Part shown: piece by piece, positions 668-11,908 of the stretch
Numbering within the stretch: position 1 is the first letter of the stretch
Layout: each line of letters begins with the position of its first letter
Assembly: GCA_964019425.1 (NCBI GenBank)
Contig: OZ025830.1
Location: forward strand, 620,001-684,000
DNA from: Flectonema sp. DT1601
Lineage: Eukaryota; Euglenozoa; Diplonemea; Diplonemida; Diplonemidae
Length of the DNA: 64,000 nucleotides
Direction of reading: 5' to 3'
The notes under the pieces: model-generated
Database searches by the model: none
What the model was told of the DNA's origin: nothing
The model's input: only the letters and a program-made list of their open reading frames with translations
Made by a program: the position numbers and the translations under genes

Positions 668-692
668 AAAAGCTACTTTCTGTACTTTATTG
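668..692 (+). other. Spliced-leader remnant at the 5' end of the LINE
   Basis: These bases read AAAAGCTAC followed by TTTCTGTACTTTATTG. The second part is the 3' end of kinetoplastid and diplonemid spliced leaders. The first part matches the diplonemid version, with AG missing between the two (leader recalled from the literature, not looked up). The next bases are ACATAC, not the GT expected in an SL RNA gene, so this is a leader joined to a message, not an SL gene. A 16-nt 5' UTR then leads to ORF1 at 709. Confidence 0.8.
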
Positions 693-708
693 ACATACAC
701 AACACAAA

Positions 709-1782
709 ATGGCTGACTGGAAAGTATCTGATGGAATCGTTGTTATTGCTGAAACCACCGTGAGGGCTTTGACTGAAGCTGAGTATAAAGGCGTATCTGA
801 TTTCGACACACAAAATTGTGATGTAAGAGCATCGTTTCAAAGAATTTTGACATCTATAAATTACAGTGAAAAAATATTAGGGCTCTATCGTCCCGACATA
901 AGTACACAAAAAATCAACGATAAACTTCCTGAATTTAAAACCTTCTCGATTCTTCTCAAGATAGAAGAACCAAATCTAAGACTATTTTTAAGTGCCTCCG
1001 GAAGAGGAGGGCTGTTTTTCAGACTAAGGAAAGACCACCCCATGAACCAGATCTTAAGTGTGATCTGGCTGGGGAGAATGGACCTAAAAACGTCCATATT
1101 AGCGCAGGAAAGTGTAAAGAGCACTTATGGAATAGCCCTGTGTAGGGGAAATTATGGAGTACGGGTAGAGAACGCCTGTAGGGAACAGGTACGAAAAAGT
1201 ATTGGGGTGAAGTCCCTAGGATACTTCTCGGTAGAGGGTATTCCCAAGGGAGTCCCAGTGGACAAGATAATTGCGAACTTCGCAACAAAAGATATTGTGG
1301 TGAAGCCGATCAAAGTAATTGATGGCAAGTGGGTCCTCAAAATAGAGGATGACTTTCTGGGAGGTGAGAATAGAATGGTGTTGGAATGGCCAGACCATGG
1401 GGTGAAGCTTGCATGCTCCCGAACCGAAAGGCCGAAACCAAAGCTGATAACCCATACAGCTGAAGGTGCACCACAGGCAAAGCCTGAATCAGACAAACAA
1501 GAAAAAGTGCAACAAAGTGGTATGGAGAGTAAACTTGACAAATTATTGTCGATGAATGAGACGTATTTCAATAAAATAGAGAACATTGAAAAAAATGTCG
1601 AAATAAGCAACGTTCGTGTTGCGAAAATAGAAAATAATGTTGCAAATCAAAACAAAAACTTTGAGGCAATCCAAAAACGTTTCATGCAAATTGAAACAAA
1701 ACTAGAAATACTAATGCCAGGATTAGGGCAGACAGAGATCAGTGGATCTGATGTGGACATGTCAAACGGTGAATATGATTGA
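709..1782 (+). CDS. LINE ORF1 protein (nucleic-acid-binding, coiled-coil)
   Basis: 357 residues from an ATG 16 nt after the SL remnant. The middle (about residues 168-220) has an RRM-like pattern, GYFSVEGIPKG followed by IDGKWVLKIED. The C-terminal third (about 270-345) is rich in heptad-spaced I, L, M and charged residues, suggesting a coiled coil for ORF1 multimers. No CCHC knuckle is seen. It probably coats the element RNA, as other LINE ORF1 proteins do. It ends in TGA (1780-1782) followed by C, and ORF2 continues in the same frame directly after this stop. Confidence 0.8.
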   Translation: MADWKVSDGIVVIAETTVRALTEAEYKGVSDFDTQNCDVRASFQRILTSINYSEKILGLYRPDISTQKINDKLPEFKTFSILLKIEEPNLRLFLSASGRGGLFFRLRKDHPMNQILSVIWLGRMDLKTSILAQESVKSTYGIALCRGNYGVRVENACREQVRKSIGVKSLGYFSVEGIPKGVPVDKIIANFATKDIVVKPIKVIDGKWVLKIEDDFLGGENRMVLEWPDHGVKLACSRTERPKPKLITHTAEGAPQAKPESDKQEKVQQSGMESKLDKLLSMNETYFNKIENIEKNVEISNVRVAKIENNVANQNKNFEAIQKRFMQIETKLEILMPGLGQTEISGSDVDMSNGEYD

Positions 1783-1854
1783 CATGCAGACCATACTCAA
1801 AAAAACAACAACCCGTCCCCTCCAATAGACACCAACGTTGAGAAAAGCATAAAT

Positions 1855-4800
1855 GTGATTAATGACAACTTGCTGGTTCAACGTGGTAATGTCCATCCCA
1901 ACCCGGAACCAAATAATGAAAGAAACTATACAGACCTTAAAATAATATCAGTAAACACGAGGTCGATGACAACATCAATTGAACTTCTACGTCTCCTTGT
2001 TATTAACTATGAACCTGACGTGCTATTAATACAAGAGACATTTTTAACGAAAAATAAGAAAACACCCGTAATTGAAGATTATAACTCATATAGGAAAGAT
2101 AGGACACTTCCAACACAAGTAGGTAAACCTATAAGAGGAGGAGGTCTACTAACCTATGTTCATAATAAATATAAATTTAAAGAAATCGCGATCACACAAA
2201 GTGATTGTGACTCACTTGAAATATCAGCTGTTGAAATACAATGTGATGAACCTCTAATTGTCTATAACATATATCGTCCACCCCTGCAATATAAAGATAC
2301 TAGGTGCCCGAATCTTAGCCTGGATTGCATTGACTTGAAAAATAATATGAAAAATGATGTTGTCATAATGGGAGACTTTAATACACATAACCATATGTGG
2401 GAAGAGAATTCCATTGACGACATCAACGGAGAAATCGTATCTGAGTGGATTAGTGAAAACAATCTTGTGTGTTGGAATGAGCCATCAATTCCAACAAGGT
2501 TGGAATCAAGGACCTCTCCGGACATAACCCTAACGAATACAAATATGAGAATAAAATCCTGGTCTACCCTTGGAACAGTTAACTCTGATCACTCACCAAT
2601 GATGATTGTAATACAAAACTCGTGCAAAAATGTTGACTACCAAAAAGTGAAAAAATGTGGTTTCAACTGGGCCGAAGCTGATTGGACAAACTTCAGTGAT
2701 GACCTTGAATTAGTCTCTGAGAGAATCCAAGATATTAAGATCAATGAAAAGAAAGCAAAAATCTTTAAGAATGAAATATTAAAAGCAAAAAGTAAACACG
2801 TACCTAGAATTTATGTGCGTAGGCGAAAAGCGAAGAAGTGGTGGAACTCCGAACTAATGAAACAGCTTCGTCAATTTGAAGCTAAACAAAAAGAAATTAC
2901 AGATGACAGCGACCTGAATGATGAAAATATGGCACTACTAAAGAAATTGAATGAAGAAATATGTGAAAAAGTAAAAGAATGTAGGGAACAACAAATTGAA
3001 AAAAGAGTGAAAGAATGTGTTACGGATGATGGATCTCCGAACAAAGATGGCATTTTAAAGTACATGGATGATGCGAGAAAACTTGACGGGCGGTGTGAAA
3101 GGGTAGAAATACCATTTATACACGACCCAAATATGGAAAAAATAATCGACGATAAAGAAAAAGCTGATTTCTTTACTGATTTCTTCTCAACTATAGTAGG
3201 GAAAGATATAAATGAAAAGTACAGACATAACTTCAACATGAATATTAAAGATGACATAGTTCCGTTCACTTTTTCTGAGGTGATGACACAATTGGGAAAA
3301 CTACATAGTACTAAATCTTCACCTGACGGAATGAATGCGATCCTGTTGCAAAATCTAAAACCCAAAATGCAAAAAACATTAGTTGATATCCTAAATAACT
3401 CTTGGTTGAACATGGTAGTACCTAATGACTGGAAACAGACTTATTGGGTACCGATTGCAAAACCCGGAAAAGACCCCCACAATCCAGCATCTTACAGAAT
3501 GATAGCGCTCACCCCTGCGATCGCTAAACTTATCGAAAAATTAATAAAGAACAGACTTGTATATCACTTAGAAAAACATAACAATGGTGTTAAAAACCTG
3601 AGTCATAATCAAGCTGCTTATCGTAAAACGAGATCGTGTAGGGAACAGATTCTGTACCTAATCGATATACTCAAAGAGAATAGAATAAGAGGGAAAACTT
3701 CGGCGGTTGTCTTTATGGATATAAAGAAAGCTTTTGATTCTGTCAACCACCACAAGTTACAAGAAAGAATGAGAAAGATGTCGATACCTGAAAACTATAT
3801 TAGGTGGGTCGAAAGCTTTCTGCACAAAAGGACAGCTGCGACTATAATTAACAGCAGAGTAAGCAAGTACATTAAGCTCACAAATGGAGTCCCGCAGGGA
3901 ACAGTCCTTGCGAGTATATTATTTGTACTCTACATTGATGAAATAACCGAAATTATAGAGAACAAAGCAAACATGTCACTCTATGCAGATGATATTGCAT
4001 TTGTAGTATCTGACGAAAATTGTGCTGGTAGGCTGTCAAACAGAGTTCAAACTGTATTTACGAAAGCGGAAGAACACTTAAACAACATTAATCTTGAGTT
4101 GGCGAGAGATAAAACAAAAATAATGATTGTTGACTCGAGTACCTCACGGAAAAAGAAATGCCAATATAAAATTGAATTTAAAGATAAGACGTGCCTAACA
4201 GAAACTGATTCTGAGAGGTTCTTAGGTGTCCAGATTGATAATGATCTATCGTTTTCTGATCATGTATCTCAAATATGTAAAAGTGTGAACAAGAAACTTC
4301 GCTTCCTAAAAATGCTGGCTGATAAAAGATGGGGTTGTACTAAAAACATAATCAGACTAGTCTACTTAATATACATCATACCTGTATTTACCTATGCTAT
4401 CGAGAGTTTGTACAGCACCATTGTACGAAGCAGAAAACTAATGCGAAAACTGAATACTCTTCATATGAAAGCAGCTCAAATCATAACTGGTGCTGACTAC
4501 GGAACAAAATTTGAGAAGGTCTTGGAAGAATCCTGCGTAGCGGATCTGAACAGCTACTATCTTGTTGAAACAGCAAGATGGGCTGCAAAGATCGAACGAC
4601 TGCGTGCCTCTCCTTGTACCAAAAGATTGATGGAAAAACGAAAAATAAAATATAAACATATGCAAACATTGTGTTTTGCAATCAAAACGTATAGTGATAT
4701 TGGTCTCACAGACCTACCAGTAGAACTTTATCCTCCAACTTACTTTCCTCCTTGGAAGGATTTTGATAAAATAGAAATTAACGAAAATATTGGTGCGAGA

Positions 4801-5718
4801 AAATGCGAAAACACGAATAGAAATCAAGATATCTGTAAAGAACTTATCAGAAAATTAGAAGAAAAATATGAAAACAACATACTTGCGACAATATATACTG
4901 ACGGCTCTGTAAGTGAAGGAGTTGGAGGTGCATCATTTGTAATAAATTTTGAAGAGAAATTCCTGGAAGGTAAATTCCCGGCAGGAAAAATATGCTCTTC
5001 TTTTAGATCGGAGTTATTTGCAATATACCATGCTCTCAATACTTTACTGAAAGTAATAAAGAAAAAACCAAATAGGGAGTTGGAAGACAAGGCAATTCTA
5101 GTTCTCTCAGACTCACAGAGTGCCTTATCTGAACTAAAAAGAGGTCATTGCTACCAACGGACTGAGCTAGGTCTTAAATGCTGGATTATCCTGGGAATAC
5201 TGTGTGAACAGGGTTTGAAAGTTAATATATCTCATATTTTCTCACATTGTGGAATCGAAGGGAATGAAAGGGCAGATGCTCTTGCTGCTGAAGCAGTACA
5301 TATGGAACAAGACAAAGTCAAAGTTGATTACAAAACTGTAACGACGAAAATGAAATTCTTACATACAAAAGTTAAAATAGGAAAGAAAGAATCATTTCCT
5401 CCGAAATTCAATAGGGAAATGGAAATATTGATCTCTCAAATAAGGATGGGAAAGGCATGCTTTACCACAAAGCAAACTGATAATAGATATAGAAATGGAT
5501 TGTGTCAATGCTGTGAAGTCGAAGACACAGTACAACACTTTGTATGTGAATGCCCTGCATTCTATAAGGAAAGAAAAACAAACTTCGAATCTCTTATACT
5601 ATCGGAACAAGAGTTAGAAGGACACGTGAATGAATTCGATGGTATGAAAATACTGTTGAAATATATATGTGAAGTGGGAAAAGGGCTTATCCAAAGGGTG
5701 AGGCTCATAAGAAAATAA
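1855..5718 (+). CDS. LINE ORF2 polyprotein: endonuclease, reverse transcriptase, RNase H
   Basis: About 1,287 residues. The endonuclease spans about 1935-2620, with the Asn of SVNTRS, the Glu of QETF, GDFNTH and the terminal NSDHSPM. The reverse transcriptase spans about 3250-4050, with MDIKKAFDSV, NGVPQGTVLASILF and the catalytic YADD near 3981. RNase H lies at about 4885-5290, with IYTDGS, RSELFAI, SDSQSAL and NERADALA. A C-terminal knuckle CQCC...H...C is at 5503-5557. The frame is open from the ORF1 stop at 1783. The only start-like codon before the endonuclease is GTG at 1855; the first ATG (1966) falls after the catalytic Asn. Stop readthrough or reinitiation from ORF1 is therefore likely. 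Confidence 0.9.
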   Translation: MINDNLLVQRGNVHPNPEPNNERNYTDLKIISVNTRSMTTSIELLRLLVINYEPDVLLIQETFLTKNKKTPVIEDYNSYRKDRTLPTQVGKPIRGGGLLTYVHNKYKFKEIAITQSDCDSLEISAVEIQCDEPLIVYNIYRPPLQYKDTRCPNLSLDCIDLKNNMKNDVVIMGDFNTHNHMWEENSIDDINGEIVSEWISENNLVCWNEPSIPTRLESRTSPDITLTNTNMRIKSWSTLGTVNSDHSPMMIVIQNSCKNVDYQKVKKCGFNWAEADWTNFSDDLELVSERIQDIKINEKKAKIFKNEILKAKSKHVPRIYVRRRKAKKWWNSELMKQLRQFEAKQKEITDDSDLNDENMALLKKLNEEICEKVKECREQQIEKRVKECVTDDGSPNKDGILKYMDDARKLDGRCERVEIPFIHDPNMEKIIDDKEKADFFTDFFSTIVGKDINEKYRHNFNMNIKDDIVPFTFSEVMTQLGKLHSTKSSPDGMNAILLQNLKPKMQKTLVDILNNSWLNMVVPNDWKQTYWVPIAKPGKDPHNPASYRMIALTPAIAKLIEKLIKNRLVYHLEKHNNGVKNLSHNQAAYRKTRSCREQILYLIDILKENRIRGKTSAVVFMDIKKAFDSVNHHKLQERMRKMSIPENYIRWVESFLHKRTAATIINSRVSKYIKLTNGVPQGTVLASILFVLYIDEITEIIENKANMSLYADDIAFVVSDENCAGRLSNRVQTVFTKAEEHLNNINLELARDKTKIMIVDSSTSRKKKCQYKIEFKDKTCLTETDSERFLGVQIDNDLSFSDHVSQICKSVNKKLRFLKMLADKRWGCTKNIIRLVYLIYIIPVFTYAIESLYSTIVRSRKLMRKLNTLHMKAAQIITGADYGTKFEKVLEESCVADLNSYYLVETARWAAKIERLRASPCTKRLMEKRKIKYKHMQTLCFAIKTYSDIGLTDLPVELYPPTYFPPWKDFDKIEINENIGARKCENTNRNQDICKELIRKLEEKYENNILATIYTDGSVSEGVGGASFVINFEEKFLEGKFPAGKICSSFRSELFAIYHALNTLLKVIKKKPNRELEDKAILVLSDSQSALSELKRGHCYQRTELGLKCWIILGILCEQGLKVNISHIFSHCGIEGNERADALAAEAVHMEQDKVKVDYKTVTTKMKFLHTKVKIGKKESFPPKFNREMEILISQIRMGKACFTTKQTDNRYRNGLCQCCEVEDTVQHFVCECPAFYKERKTNFESLILSEQELEGHVNEFDGMKILLKYICEVGKGLIQRVRLIRK

Positions 5719-5989
5719 AGAAACGATGCTTTTGCCCCACTCTTTTGTGAAGGTAGATGCCTTGTGGTGCCGAAGGAAAGCAGACAGGGGAACAGATGAT
5801 GAAGAGGATTCTGATGTATGAAGAAGGTGATTCTGATGTCATTTAAAAGATGAAGATTATGTAGTTACGAAAATGATGAGGATACTGCAGTAAGTTAAAT
5901 GAACAGAAGAGATCATCCTACTCCTTGAGAACAAGAAGGGTTCATTGAGAAGCCTGTCATTTTGCTGTTTAATTATGCTGATAATAACA

Positions 5990-6348
5990 ATTATGCTGAT
6001 AACATTTATTACGTAACTCTTGCTTAACATTAGACAAATCTAACTAAGTCTTTTGTTCATCTTGCTCTTCTTAACTTCCATTATGCGAAAAACTTCTTAA
6101 GCAAGAGGGAAAGCTGATTGCTGGAAGGAGGGCTGACAGTTTTAAGATGTGGAGAACACTTATTTAGATGAAGACGTAAAGTAAATTAGATGTACTCACA
6201 TGAGGATTATAAACATGTCAACAACTCAAAGAAAAAGGGTTAATCGTGTAACCCGTCAAACCATGCTGTTGTAACTATTATGCTGATTAATTTTATTTTT
6301 ACGTAACTCTTGCTGCACATTAGACTAAACTAGCTCAGTCTTCTGTTT
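5990..6348 (+). repeat. Imperfect direct repeat in the LINE 3' UTR
   Basis: Bases 5990-6057 and 6277-6348 share ATTATGCTGAT, then ACGTAACTCTTGCT, ACATTAGAC and AGTCTT.TGTT in the same order with scattered mismatches. A third ATTATGCTGATAA begins at 5972. The repeat lies inside the LINE and may be a structured 3' recognition region for its reverse transcriptase. Confidence 0.6.
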
Positions 6349-6518
6349 CTCTATTGTATTCCTTTCTATTTATGAACGAACCTTTTGGGGTCAACTTACC
6401 CCGCTCATAAACAGGATATCAAGTGAACAGAGAATTAACCTTCTCTGTATCACAACATATCCAGTATCAAAAAAAAAAAAAAAATATCAAAAGGAAATAA
6501 GTTTTATTATTTATTTAG

Positions 6519-6624
6519 TCACATCCCCCCTGTCTTCCCACTTTATTTTTCTTCATTCTGAGCATTCTTGCCCTTCTTCTTTATTGATAAAGTAAACAAG
6601 TAAAAACAAGCGCAACTGTCCTGA
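6519..6624. repeat. 106-bp direct repeat flanking the viral fossil, left copy
   Basis: Matches 10471-10576 at 104 of 106 positions. Read on the - strand, the right copy is the 3' end of the second LINE's 3' UTR, so this left copy is either a long target-site duplication or a separate fragment of that LINE's 3' end. Confidence 0.9.
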
Positions 6625-6652
6625 TATAATAAAAAAAATTTATTTTGTCACA

Positions 6653-6667
6653 TTCTGTACTTTATTG
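6653..6667 (+). other. Spliced-leader remnant ahead of the viral polymerase fossil
   Basis: The 15 bases TTCTGTACTTTATTG are identical to the last 15 of the leader remnant at 668-692 and to the 3' end of euglenozoan spliced leaders. They are followed by GC rather than GT, so this is not an SL RNA gene. A start codon follows 27 bases later. A single 15-base match in an AT-rich window is weaker evidence than the LINE case, but its position directly before the reading frame supports it. Confidence 0.6.
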
Positions 6668-9600
6668 GCTGGTTAACCATTGTAAAATAAACCAATGTCT
6701 AATGTTTCCAAGAAACCTACATACTTGGGTGACTGTGCTGAATCATTCCTAAGAGATGCAAGCATGAAATTGAACGTGGTTTATCTGGAAAAGTGTCGGT
6801 TATTGATAAAAGATTATCTTCAGATGGACCGCATCAAAAACAACAAAGTGAGCTTGCCATTGGATGATGAAGTATCAGAAGCTTTTCTCTATTGCTGGAA
6901 AAACCTTCAGAGCTTAAGTTAATGTCAGTTCAAGGAAATATTAAGAAAACCAGAGCGTCTATAAGATATTTGAAAAGGAGGGAGTGGGCCCATTGCTTTT
7001 ATGATATGATCACCTCTAATAAAGCTATTAGATTCGGCGTGGATGCTTCTGTTCTCTTTTTTGATCATTATAGGTCTATAATCATGAGTCATAATCATAT
7101 GAATGCAGATGTTAACATAAGAGATCTTTTCGCGTTGGAAGTGATTGACAGTAAACAATTAGAGATAATTGGTTCCATTGAGAACGACGTTGATGTTTGC
7201 TTTTACAGTGAAATTCTTTCGAAGACTGTAGAGCTACATAGGAGACTTATATTCTGCCCTGTTGGTTATGTTAACACTTATGACATTACACCCCATCAGA
7301 CAATAACTTTCTTTAAGACTGGAAGGAACCTAGCCATTAAACTTGATTCTTATTATCTCATTCTTGATGACAATTCACTTAACGTCTTCCTACAGACTAG
7401 CTCGGGTTTTTTCAATACCCTTTGCTACAGTAGAGCTCAGGTTCACTCCCAAGGAAAGTTAGAATTGAGCCAATCTCTGGTTGAAAAATTGGCAGAATTG
7501 ATGGCCTCTATGTCCAGGAGAGCCTGCTTCTTGATCGAAAATGGCGGCTCTATAGCATGTTTGAATAAATCAGTGCAAAGACTGATTCTTGTCTGCTTCT
7601 TGCGCTGTGAGGTGGATGACGAACTGAAACACCTTTGCTTAAAAAGAGCTAATCTCCTCCAACAAGATGCTGTTGAACTAGACATCTTCTCAGATAGTGT
7701 CTATGATGCCATCAAGAGCTCTTGTTTAGTTTCTCAATTATCTTTTATCCGAAGCCTTAATTTCCTACCTTCGATTGATTTCAATGCTTTTGAGATGATG
7801 GACAGATTGACAGAGCAGAACATTAATGAGCGAATCCCCAATTCCGACCTAGCAAAAGACTTCTTAATTTGCTGTGAAGGTTGGAATGGTCTGATGCTCC
7901 GAAGGTCTACTGTCGCAAGGACTCGCTTTAGCTTTGTCGAGACTGGTTATCTTAATGATTGGTTGGCAGAAACTGAAGGCAAAGAATGCATTATAGACGC
8001 TCTTGCTCCTACTGAAATCCTTCAGATGGCCCGTATTACTAAGCACTCTGACCCCACTCCTGAACAAACTACACAAGGCTGGTTCATGCATCCCGAAAAT
8101 GCCACATATTTAGAATCAGATGAAGGACGAGCTGTTAATGTGTCCACCGAAACCGTTGCTTCTTGGAGGAGAGGCCCTCAAATATTAACAAAGGCCTTAG
8201 TGGAAGAAAAGCTAGCTCTAAGTCATGAAATGGCTTTTACTCTAGCGGCTAAAGCTGAAAATAGCAAGGCCAACCCCAGGATAACAGCATCAGCTGACCA
8301 CGTATCAAGAGCTGCATGCTCGGCACAAGACACAAGAGTGAGATCCCTTATACCTCCTAATTATGGGTTCTCCCAGCACAACGAGAGCAAAGACCGCCTC
8401 AACCAAGAAAAGGGCTTGTTGAAAGCAACAAAAAACGAAAAGACAGGCATTTCATCCCATGATGTAAAGGCTTGGTCTGAATTAGAAAATCGCAGCTTTA
8501 AGATACAATGTTTGAAAACATTCGACGTGACTTCTGAGGACAAAGTTATACTGGGTTCTTCCAACCTCTGGAACAGAGCTTACGCCAACGTCACTAAGTC
8601 TTATTGCACCAGCAAAAGTGTCTTTTCTGGAGGCTGGATGCAGGGGATTAGTGGCGCTTTTGATTCCATACATCATCAACACATTCTGAAGTACGTTTTG
8701 AGAACTTGGAGACAGACCTCCGTTGATATGAGTAAAGATGAACAAACAGCCAGAAAGTCAGTAGGGAACCCTCACTTTTCTCTCACATGCATAGATGATG
8801 TTGTCTTAGAGGTGTTGTCTTCCATAAAGGATAAAGTTAGTGGAGAGTGGGAGAACTCATTTAATAAATTTGAAAAGCATTTGTATAATATTTACAGTGA
8901 ATTGGGATATCCTTTAGATCCACTTAAATCTATATTCAGTTGTACGAAGTCTGTATTTTTGTCCAATTTATATGTCAATGGGGTTAAAGTGCTGACGCCT
9001 ATGAAAGTTGCACCTAAATTAAAACTGACTTTTGAAGAAATAGCTCCTTCACTCTTAGACATAGCTAATGCTATTAGGTCAATGGGAACTGCTTATTGTG
9101 AGAATGGTGGCTCACCTCAAGTGTGTTATGCAGTGATGTTCATGCAAACATTTTCACACGTTGCCTTAAACAGCGGGATTGCTAACAGAGAGGCCACTAC
9201 TTCTAAAATGCTTCTACCCGACAGTGCAGGGGGCATAGGTTTCCCAACCTTCTACGAATTCTCCATGGGAGGAACGTATGACCGAATGTACCACCTGAGC
9301 AAGTTAGCAGACGCAGAAGAGCTTGAGATTGATGATTTGCCCAACCCTGTCAGAACTGAACTCACTAATGCTCTGAGAGTTTGTTTCAGAGGGGAACATG
9401 TTGAACTTGGTCAAGATGGTCTCACAAACAAACCAGTTGCATCCATAAGAGTGTTAAGACAGAAAGCCTGCCTCCAAGCAGCTCTAAAGACGAAACACAA
9501 CATTTTTTGGGACAATATTGTCGAAGTTGACAAAAGCTTCAGAACTGCAACTGAGTCAGCTCTGTCTAAAACGACTACTCCATCTTATGCAATTGCTCAG

Positions 9601-10470
9601 TCCATTTTAAGTGCTACTCCGGGATCCGTGCTTTTGACACTAATGGATAAGTTCACCTCAAGCAGATTCATCAATGGCCTTCACTTAAACAGCAATGATA
9701 GGAGGTCTCTAATGAAAACCCAAGTGAGAACAGCCAAAAAACTAAAAAGCTTCTTGATAGCACCTAGAGAATGCCTTGAGAATTCGGATTTTTCATGTGT
9801 GCAATTGCTTCGTTATAAAAGAATAAAAGAGATGGGCAACACATCTGGAACAGATTTGGTAGTACCTTCTCCTTGGCATGTGCCTGAATTACTTCAGACT
9901 GAACCTACTGTTTATGCAATTGATTACATGTCCATGAACCAGATCAATGATAAACATACTGGGAGCCTGCTGTCTGTCACCACCAACAGTGAGAATCATC
10001 GATTGGGAACTGGTTCTTCGAAGTCTAAGCTGTACTCTCTTACGCAAGACATAAGGAAGCAGTCTTTTTTGTCCAAAGTGGTAGAGATGGTGGAGGTTAT
10101 TGAATCCACTGGTTTGGAAAAGGATACAACGAGACAACTAGTCACAGCTGTCTTGAAAACATGGGGCCTAAAAGTGCCAAAGCATTTGTCCTTCAGAGAT
10201 GAGCCCAAAACTTCACTAAAACTGGCTTTGTCAACCACCAAGGAATTGGAACATAAATTTATGTGCAATTCGAATCTCTGCTCTCATGTAGTGAGTACTG
10301 GCAAGTTTAAACAAGACGAGTTTATCCATAATTGGATAGACAAGGCACTACTGGATAAGTTCCAGACTGTCAGCACTGTGTTGGGCTATGTTCAGAAAAA
10401 AACCTTTTCTTCTGAAGAAAAACAAGATAAATAAATAAAAAAGGTTTATAAAAGCTTTTTTATTTTTTTT
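6653..10470 (+). pseudogene. Endogenous viral fossil: bunyavirus-like L protein (RNA-dependent RNA polymerase)
   Basis: A copy of part of the L gene of a negative-strand RNA virus, order Bunyavirales or a close relative. Its palm motifs appear in the correct order and spacing: a basic motif F-like stretch, motif A (DVKAWS, about 8461), motif B (QG plus Ser and His, about 8641), a motif C double Asp (about 8794), then motif D and E patterns near 8910-9000. Downstream, an ENGG stretch and an LPDSAGGIGFP stretch also recall bunyaviral L. There is no reverse transcriptase, integrase or LTR. The copy is partial and broken, with about one interruption, otherwise mostly open, so it is fairly young. 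It is headed by an SL remnant and bracketed by 106-bp direct repeats about 98% identical. Assignment to a family within the order is not possible from this sequence alone. Confidence 0.78.
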
Positions 10471-10576
10471 TCACATCCCCCCTGTCTTTCCACTTTATTT
10501 TTCTTCATTCTGAGCATTCTTGCCCTTCTTATTTATTGATAAAGTAAACAAGTAAAAACAAGCGCAACTGTCCTGA
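10471..10576. repeat. 106-bp direct repeat flanking the viral fossil, right copy
   Basis: Near-identical to 6519-6624 (two mismatches). On the - strand it continues directly from the second LINE's 3' UTR and is followed by an A-rich run (A9 T A6), as if it were that LINE's natural 3' end. Confidence 0.9.
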
Positions 10577-10774
10577 GTCCGTTGGAGGACTTCCCCGGAT
10601 AGGAATCTCAAGACACAGTTAATATAAAGCGAAGGATCAGTACAGGGACGGTGGCCAAAGACCACTGGGTTACCTACGAGCCATGAAGCTCTGCGGATGT
10701 CCTCAGAGAAATTAGGATGATTAAGGAGTGTGATAAGGAAGAATGATACTAATGAATTAGCAACTACCAATCAG

Positions 10775-11845
10775 TTAACAGTTTGATAAGCCTGTCCGTT
10801 GTTCCAAATGCCATAAGTAGCCGGCTAGGGCGTGAATATTTCTCGTCGCAAACATTATTGAAAGATTTAGTTTGGTCTCGGAGATTCTCGCTTCCTGAAT
10901 GTTTGATCTAATTGTTCCTTCTCTAATGCGGACCACGTCACCATCCTCGCAATCAAATATTAGATGTCGGGCCGAAGAGTCTGTTCTTTTGCAGAAGGGG
11001 CACTTTATCGGTAGTTCATTTACCCTGAGCAGGGGGTGAGAGCCCGTTCTAAACCTGGCTATCCTTATCTCTGATTCTCTCAGCATGTCCTTGGGGTATC
11101 GAGCCGCTCTCAGGCCTCCGGTAGCATCAAGATATTGCCTAAGCATCACCCGTTTGATCGGTGGTTTCGCCCTTGTTGAACCCTCCATAATCTTACCAAA
11201 CAGCTTTCTGTTAGCTTCCCTCGCTATCCTTGACTTATGTGCGAAGAAGTCCATAGTCGTTGACACCGGCTTGCTCTTAACATCTTTTGAGATCTTTTTC
11301 GCCAGTTCATCTGCTTTGTCATGCGGTTCAATTCCCACATGAGCTGGGATGAATTGAAGGTGTACGAATGAGTCTAATTTTCTAATCCCTTCTAGTATTG
11401 AGAGAGAGTTCAGCTTCCTCTGAGCCGCAATTCCACCACGCAGCTCATCCAGATTGGATTTAGAATCACTGAAGACTCTCGTGATTCCAGATCTGGGACC
11501 CAAGACAGAGGTTGCTTTTCCAAATTCACTTATTAACAGCTTCAGAGTTACCTGTTCAGCTTTATAACTACTTTCCGTTGCAACAAGTCTCGATGCCATG
11601 GTCCGTTCACACGGCGTGATCTGCACTGCCGCTGCGCCTGCCGTGAAGTTGACAGGGTCGTGGGATCCGTCAACAAAAATGGACGAGGTACATGGCCTAA
11701 GTTCGCTGCAGTACTCCTCGAACTTAGCCTTGTCCACTTCAGCAACACCGGTCTTCGAGTGTCCATATCCGCAAGATATCTTCAGGTTCGGAACATCTAT
11801 CCATGGCTCGATGCTGTCAGGCATGACAATCCCCTGGATCTTCAT
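10775..11845 (-). CDS. Partial LINE ORF2: RNase H domain and zinc knuckle
   Basis: 356 residues counted from the first Met; the open frame actually continues upstream to about 11908, so this Met is not a real start. RNase H motifs run in order: IFVDGSHD, the Glu of SYKAEQ, FSDSKSNL, and IPAHVGIEPHDKADELA. About 80 residues further on, CPFC followed by ARHLIFDC gives a C-x2-C...H...C knuckle as in I-group LINEs. It is a remnant with no independent function expected, although the frame carries no internal stop. Confidence 0.8.
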   Translation of the reverse strand: MKIQGIVMPDSIEPWIDVPNLKISCGYGHSKTGVAEVDKAKFEEYCSELRPCTSSIFVDGSHDPVNFTAGAAAVQITPCERTMASRLVATESSYKAEQVTLKLLISEFGKATSVLGPRSGITRVFSDSKSNLDELRGGIAAQRKLNSLSILEGIRKLDSFVHLQFIPAHVGIEPHDKADELAKKISKDVKSKPVSTTMDFFAHKSRIAREANRKLFGKIMEGSTRAKPPIKRVMLRQYLDATGGLRAARYPKDMLRESEIRIARFRTGSHPLLRVNELPIKCPFCKRTDSSARHLIFDCEDGDVVRIREGTIRSNIQEARISETKLNLSIMFATRNIHALAGYLWHLEQRTGLSNC

Positions 11846-11908
11846 ATTACGGTCTTCAGCTGGTAAAGTTGAACTCCAAGTTCCACTAGCGATTCTCTTC
11901 GTGGAAGT

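Follow-up and report, generated by a model that had tools for sequence, protein, structure and literature searches.

How could the end of a host spliced leader come to stand in front of what looks like a viral polymerase gene in a diplonemid genome? The question is raised by a stretch of 64,000 nucleotides from Flectonema sp. DT1601 (assembly GCA_964019425.1, contig OZ025830.1, positions 620,001 to 684,000 of the forward strand), hereafter the window, in whose coordinates all positions are given. In this window a long open frame, to judge from its sequence likely the fossil of an L-type polymerase of a divergent negative-strand RNA virus, is preceded by the last 15 bases of the host spliced leader (SL). 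The answer that we consider probable is that the fossil is a DNA copy of a mature, trans-spliced mRNA for this polymerase, inserted by a long interspersed nuclear element (LINE).

The SL relic, TTCTGTACTTTATTG, lies at 6653 to 6667 on the forward strand. It matches exactly bases 25 to 39 of the exon in the host's arrays of SL and 5S genes and stops at the last exon base, that is, at the splice site. The fossil sequence adjoining the SL end at the junction is GCTGGTTAACCATTG, with gctggttaacc directly 3' of the relic. The 27 bases from relic to start codon (6668 to 6694, same strand) would represent the 5' leader of the mRNA that was copied, and the first open frame begins with the ATG at 6695. 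The observation behind the original prediction, that 15 leader-end bases occur 27 bases before a viral frame, was thus confirmed. Could so short a match be due to chance, or be the relic of another element already lying at the insertion site? The fossil stands among LINE pieces and the LINEs of this genome carry relics, but the numbers render this explanation highly improbable. The chance of the 15-mer per 100 bases is 3.3e-7 under a first-order Markov model of the window and 7.1e-7 with local composition and, with the 190 dispersed sites of the genome taken into account, any particular 100-base stretch would hold one in the right orientation with a probability of 1.06e-4. With up to two mismatches the window holds three matches against a shuffle mean of 0.42, a number reached in 1 of 100 shuffles, so that the concern, voiced together with the prediction, that shuffled sequence might yield such a match equally well was dispelled. 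In addition, no 12-mer of the 27 bases after the relic was found in the other loci compared (loci overlapping the fossil excluded). The 15-base match is not accidental; in all likelihood it reflects the copying of a trans-spliced mRNA.

The SL genes themselves are arranged in tandem, with a unit length of 610 or 623 bp, and the exon end AACCAACGATTCTAAAGCTACAGTTTCTGTACTTTATTG is followed by GTACAG. Provided that its start is as in published leaders, the exon is 39 bases long, and over these it differs at two positions from the published 'Euglenozoa 14' leader (PMC3795323). A 5S rRNA gene is present in each unit read (Rfam, E 1.8e-21), and two array stretches gave seven 5S matches and no other Rfam family at gathering score. 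The 'Euglenozoa 14' entry is one that we take to be Diplonema. For Diplonema papillatum the exon is reported to have 39 bases and to share its repeat unit with 5S rRNA and U2; this three-gene unit is described there as seemingly absent from other diplonemids (PMC10161547). By its leader and arrays, too, the host would thus likely be placed among the diplonemids or elsewhere in the Euglenozoa.

The 89.5-Mb genome as a whole holds 813 copies of the 15-mer, of which 329 are forward and 484 reverse, compared with 2 for the reversed control. In 623 of these the sequence continues as GTACAG and corresponds to SL genes, and the remaining 190 are dispersed ends or pieces of SL genes; the base that follows the 15-mer is A in 92 of the 813 and C or T in 79. 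From the roughly 190, 113 distinct dispersed sites were read in contig order, not at random, both sites of the window being included; the search pattern misses any relic of fewer than 15 bases, which places the 15-base class at the edge of what it detects. Three of the 113 (L015, L096, L148) have the upstream flank of the SL gene itself and are SL-gene pieces rather than retrocopies. The number of leader bases kept is 37 to 39 at 51 sites, 35 or 36 at 4, 22 to 31 at 5 and 15 to 18 at 53. Exactly 15 are kept at 12 sites, comprising the fossil, eight other plain truncations and three in stuttered repeats. Downstream of the leader, 47 different 14-mers were read, 29 of them once, and 84 of the 113 sites belong to families of at least two members. 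An ATG lies within the first 60 bases at 57 sites, with spacings ranging from 7 to 57 bases, inside which the 27 bases of the fossil fall.

The short sites bear on a further explanation, namely template switching, in which the reverse transcriptase (RT), having copied an unspliced viral RNA up to its 5' end, continued on an RNA that bore the leader. Fewer than 35 leader bases are kept at 58 sites. Of these, 28 show a plain truncation or fall into no class; the remnant stands behind repeated TTCTGTAC units at 14, behind GCTAC, with loss or alteration of the AG, at 10, and behind a further SL end at 6. The TTCTGTAC stutter suggests an enzyme that slips or jumps, as such a template switch requires. 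A jump, nonetheless, should rarely land on the exact last base of the SL exon, and this base is kept at all 113 sites with 47 different continuations (other ends being missed by the pattern), which makes a template switch improbable. Stuttered TTCTGTAC(T) units resembling RT slippage were seen before the leader end at L003, L025, L033, L045, L086, L138 and L149. As a separate observation, double leaders, in which a leader end is joined to bases 24 to 39 of a second one, were read at six sites, among them L028, L030, L098, L103 and L113, and at L092 a leader end is followed by bases 18 to 39. The double leaders with bases 24 to 39 may be the product expected from splicing onto an AG inside an older relic.

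Cap-snatching takes the 5'-most 10 to 20 bases of host mRNAs. A viral enzyme that used a host mRNA cut at the leader end as its primer would have had to take 39 bases, and only by coincidence would the cut fall exactly on the exon end. According to the available text of PMC10161547, essentially all Diplonema mRNAs carry the SL, whose trans-splicing occurs in all Euglenozoa, so that a snatched cap in this group would indeed be that of an SL. Even so, the leader is not followed by an end of the acacaaag type, unlike in leishbunyaviruses as described in PMC7077295, and this origin is very improbable. The proposal that the 3' end of the leader is better explained by trans-splicing than by cap-snatching therefore stands, since cap-snatching fits the exact exon end less well.

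If the relic reflects splicing, which enzyme could have copied the spliced RNA? A reverse transcriptase of the non-long-terminal-repeat (non-LTR) type is present in the same genome in LINE W, an SL-tagged element with endonuclease, reverse transcriptase and RNase H, whose copy at 675 to 6484 (forward strand, ends placed by eye) lies a short way upstream of the fossil. Its frame at 1855 to 5718 matches Exo_endo_phos, RVT_1 and RNase_H (Pfam), and its 5' end holds the second exact SL 15-mer of the window, at 678 to 692. LINE W accounts for 11 of the sites read (the copy in the window, L025, L027, L050, L083, L089, L090, L131, L134, L142 and L146), which makes trans-splicing of its RNA likely. 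Further repeated families, for instance those of L003, L006 and L013, likewise carry the leader end at their 5' end, and may also be LINEs; in several of them a long frame opens soon after the leader, eight such frames giving no Pfam match, as did a single-copy frame behind a leader. Altogether, it is likely that LINE RNAs of this genome are trans-spliced and that leader-bearing RNAs are copied into DNA. For the fossil, the copying of a trans-spliced mRNA by a LINE reverse transcriptase is favoured because of the exact exon end, the short 5' leader and the many sites built alike, and so the trans-spliced RNA that the original prediction had proposed as the template is retained as the best reading.

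What, then, is the copied gene? Its first 75 codons (6695 to 6922, forward strand, stop at 6920) are out of frame with the rest, which forms a main open frame of 1180 uninterrupted codons at 6892 to 10434 on the same strand. Five stretches resembling polymerase motifs were placed by eye in the order F, A, B, C, D/E, which is that of negative-strand polymerases, and some of them can be compared with two related places in the genome, C40 and C45. All on the forward strand, these are a motif F-like KAENSKANPR at 8251 to 8280, conserved in the C40 copy; a motif A-like DVKAW at 8461 to 8475, read as DVKAR in C40; a motif B-like GGWMQG at 8629 to 8646, in a region not covered by the other copies; motif C, IDD, at 8791 to 8799, also IDD in C45; and a motif D/E-like K...FLSNLYVNG at 8926 to 8982, within the only viral Pfam match. 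This match, to Mononeg_RNA_pol, covers the residues that directly follow motif C; three overlapping pieces gave it at E 0.011, 0.0038 and 0.0026, with scores of 13.9 to 16 bits that lie below the curated cut-off of 27. Pfam scans of the frame pieces gave no Bunya_RdRp match at E up to 1 or 5, the HMMER filters discarding most matches above E of about 0.1. In bunyaviruses motif C takes the form SDD. The designation 'bunyavirus-like' given at first to the frame thus finds no support, as motif C is IDD, Bunya_RdRp does not match and the sole weak match to a viral family is to Mononeg_RNA_pol. Likewise, no qin-like or yue-like polymerases came up in the protein searches and a scan for viral contigs found nothing. 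Against solved structures, one piece gave, next to four unrelated matches, the L polymerase 7yot at E 1.1, and a profile of the pieces gave an unrelated match alone. As an observation apart, an identical protein of 1170 amino acids is present in the protein collection on a contig of 327,691 bases; because the contig of the window has 842,218 bases, it is likely that a second assembly contains the fossil too.

The source of the copied RNA can be approached through the relatives of the fossil. Searching the genome with protein pieces led to two further places only, C40 (119 codons) and C45 (307 aligned codons, with stops), and a 366-codon piece from the 5' part found no relative there. In the aligned pieces the amino-acid identity to the fossil is 69 to 85%. 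At the nucleotide level, C40 is 0.70 identical to the fossil, with proportions of synonymous and nonsynonymous differences (pS and pN) of 0.83 and 0.15 and 43% identical third positions; for C45 the corresponding values are 0.68, 0.91, 0.14 and 38%. These pS and pN values show purifying selection. Divergence of this kind accumulates while selection acts on a gene, for example in a circulating virus, but not between dead copies, so that C40, C45 and the fossil are likely separate captures of diverged viruses, and neither of the two is likely to be the parent of the fossil. The same data weigh on the idea that the frame is an ordinary or domesticated host gene that was retrocopied. A long open frame without a significant viral homologue would be in keeping with it; the motif order speaks for a polymerase instead, and the two relatives are fragments, one with stops, even though the sequences diverged under selection. 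A host gene is therefore unlikely.

Trans-splicing takes place in the nucleus and, consequently, the viral RNA is likely to have been there, by way of either viral nuclear transcription or an older DNA copy. The latter had been put forward in the original prediction as an example of a source. If the host had transcribed an older endogenous copy, one now lost or missing from the assembly, and the RNA had been trans-spliced and retrocopied, a nuclear transcript would have been available without a nuclear virus, and other fossils of the same virus group do exist. This copy would need to have remained nearly open until retrocopying, though, and a DNA search with 6600 to 7500 returned the fossil itself alone, while three protein pieces led to the two other places alone, both saturated at synonymous positions and neither of them a parent. 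Such a source is rather unlikely, and the suggestion was not upheld. The searches of the genome returned no near-identical older copy. It is therefore likely that the copied RNA was a transcript of the virus itself, and nuclear viral mRNA is also the simpler explanation of the two.

The junctions of the fossil show where the copy may have landed. Upstream of the relic there is a short 3' tail of another element, LINE X, aatttattttgtcacat, at 6637 to 6653 on the reverse strand, which shares one base with the relic and is the candidate left copy of a target-site duplication; the candidate right copy is CTTTTTTATTTTTTTTTCACAT at 10455 to 10476, with an alignment score of 11.5. Not one of 2000 shuffles gave so high a score, but 5 of 2000 random pairs from the window did, and both flanks are LINE tails, so that a target-site duplication is possible. 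An automatic search for duplications over 60 loci (46 distinct sites) gave only 7- to 8-base repeats, which are at chance level by length, and a stretch of SL gene. The 3' end of the copy reads TAAATAAATAAAAAA and then enters a fold-back; this A-rich end and the T-rich fold-back, with 22-nt arms that are 86% complementary, lie at 10426 to 10472 on the forward strand. On the right follows a 5'-truncated LINE X copy at 10471 to 11850 (reverse strand, 5' end approximate), likely the host of the fossil in its 3' end; its frame at 10775 to 11845 (356 codons) is RNase H-like by eye and has no Pfam match. Another fragment of the LINE X 3' end at 6522 to 6616 on the reverse strand is 98% identical to the right copy. 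The fossil is hence flanked by a direct repeat of about 100 bp (6518 to 6620 and 10471 to 10572), which was considered as a long target-site duplication and rejected, as it is the 3' end of the dispersed LINE X family, with at least 41 matches genome-wide. The right flank continues as cccccctgtc, and the joined empty site resembles the 3' end of LINE X, which makes the 3' end of a LINE X copy the likely place of insertion. A junction like the left one was seen at L017:1501-1563 (minus), where a LINE X-like tail, tttattttgtcacatc, stands head-to-head with an SL-tagged 5' end. For the fossil, a second LINE 3' end laid down in this arrangement was considered too, but is no more than a side remark.

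In the sequence of events that we propose, a transcript of the viral L gene, likely the virus's own, would have been present in the nucleus, where the host would have spliced the 39-base leader onto it 27 bases before the start codon, as the exact leader end suggests. A LINE reverse transcriptase may then have copied this RNA; the copy stops in the leader at base 25, as at eight or more other sites read. Insertion into the 3' end of LINE X would have followed, with a possible duplication of TCACAT or of a longer sequence rich in T. The start of the gene and its remainder now stand in two frames, a situation likely due to a later frameshift.

Several points weigh against this answer. Trans-splicing would be unexpected for a transcript of a negative-strand virus made in the cytoplasm. 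The leader remnant comprises just 15 bases, neither C40 nor C45 covers the 5' end of the fossil, and there is neither a clean poly(A) tail nor a clean target-site duplication at the fossil. As to the viral nature of the frame, a search of 5.8 billion proteins, which needs shared five-residue words, returned no homologue except the identical protein. Comparison with solved structures gave no significant match, one piece yielding unrelated ones alone, and the single-sequence structure model was unusable (pLDDT 38). A likely spurious match to DUF1451 (E 0.053, 0.038 and 0.017) appeared beside Mononeg_RNA_pol, and the C40 and C45 pieces match no Pfam family at E up to 5. For these reasons, and owing to its position below the cut-off, the Mononeg_RNA_pol match is a lead and no proof.

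Related situations have been described in other protists. In Symbiodiniaceae, relict dinoSL sequences are reported near 6 of 26 endogenous dinoRNAV elements, within 500 bp, and LINE-mediated retroposition was proposed (PMC10235124). There as here, a viral polymerase fossil in a trans-splicing protist has a leader relic nearby, so that the record is less unusual than it had been called; the dinoRNAV elements are, in contrast, of positive-strand origin and in a dinoflagellate host, whereas the present virus was likely negative-strand, the host is euglenozoan and the start codon follows the relic after 27 bases. The SL-tagged retrogenes of dinoflagellates, DinoRL, similarly bear a leader relic at the 5' end of the retrocopy, with new leaders spliced before the relic (PMC12014239), as may be the case here. 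They differ in that the main carriers read here are a LINE family and other repeated families, and that truncation clusters at bases 24/25 of 39. Concerning the polymerase, motif C is described as IDD in qin-like and related yue-like viruses and as SDD in Yueviridae (PMC11417338). The fossil shares with the qin-like and yue-like viruses a polymerase likely of negative-strand type with IDD in motif C (by eye), but no sequence match to them was obtained and its frames together comprise only some 1250 codons. Among negative-strand viruses of Euglenozoa there are also the leishbunyaviruses of trypanosomatids; for one of them a Bunya_RdRp match (pfam04196, E 2.24e-22) and acacaaaga termini are reported (PMC7077295). 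The fossil shows neither this match nor such a terminus, an end that splicing would remove. No report of an SL relic at a viral fossil in Euglenozoa, or for a negative-strand virus, was found among the searched open-access papers, within which this looks like the first case of both.

If the proposed origin is correct, the DNA records the passage of a negative-strand virus mRNA through nuclear trans-splicing, which bears on how such viruses acquire caps in hosts whose mRNAs start with an SL. More tentatively, a lineage of negative-strand viruses could have infected this protist group repeatedly and transcribed in the nucleus, its polymerase mRNA being capped and matured by host SL trans-splicing instead of cap-snatching or a viral capping enzyme, with the fossil as the copy of one such mRNA; we regard this wider scenario as possible but doubtful. 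SL relics could also help to sort viral fossils in Euglenozoa, as in dinoflagellates, and at least one LINE family carries the leader itself, among the approximately 190 dispersed leader ends of this genome.

Some minor observations concern the surroundings of other relics. A Pfam scan of ten frames behind SL relics left nine without a match, and the tenth gave an RNase H match together with a DP2 match below the cut-off. On contig C85, SL 15-mers occur as pairs 69 bp apart in two places about 11 kb from each other (541886/541955 and 553226/553295). The tRNA-Cys gene at 592 to 665 of the window ends about a dozen bases from the LINE W relic at 678, and the relic at L083 seemingly stands beside tRNA-like sequence as well (by eye).

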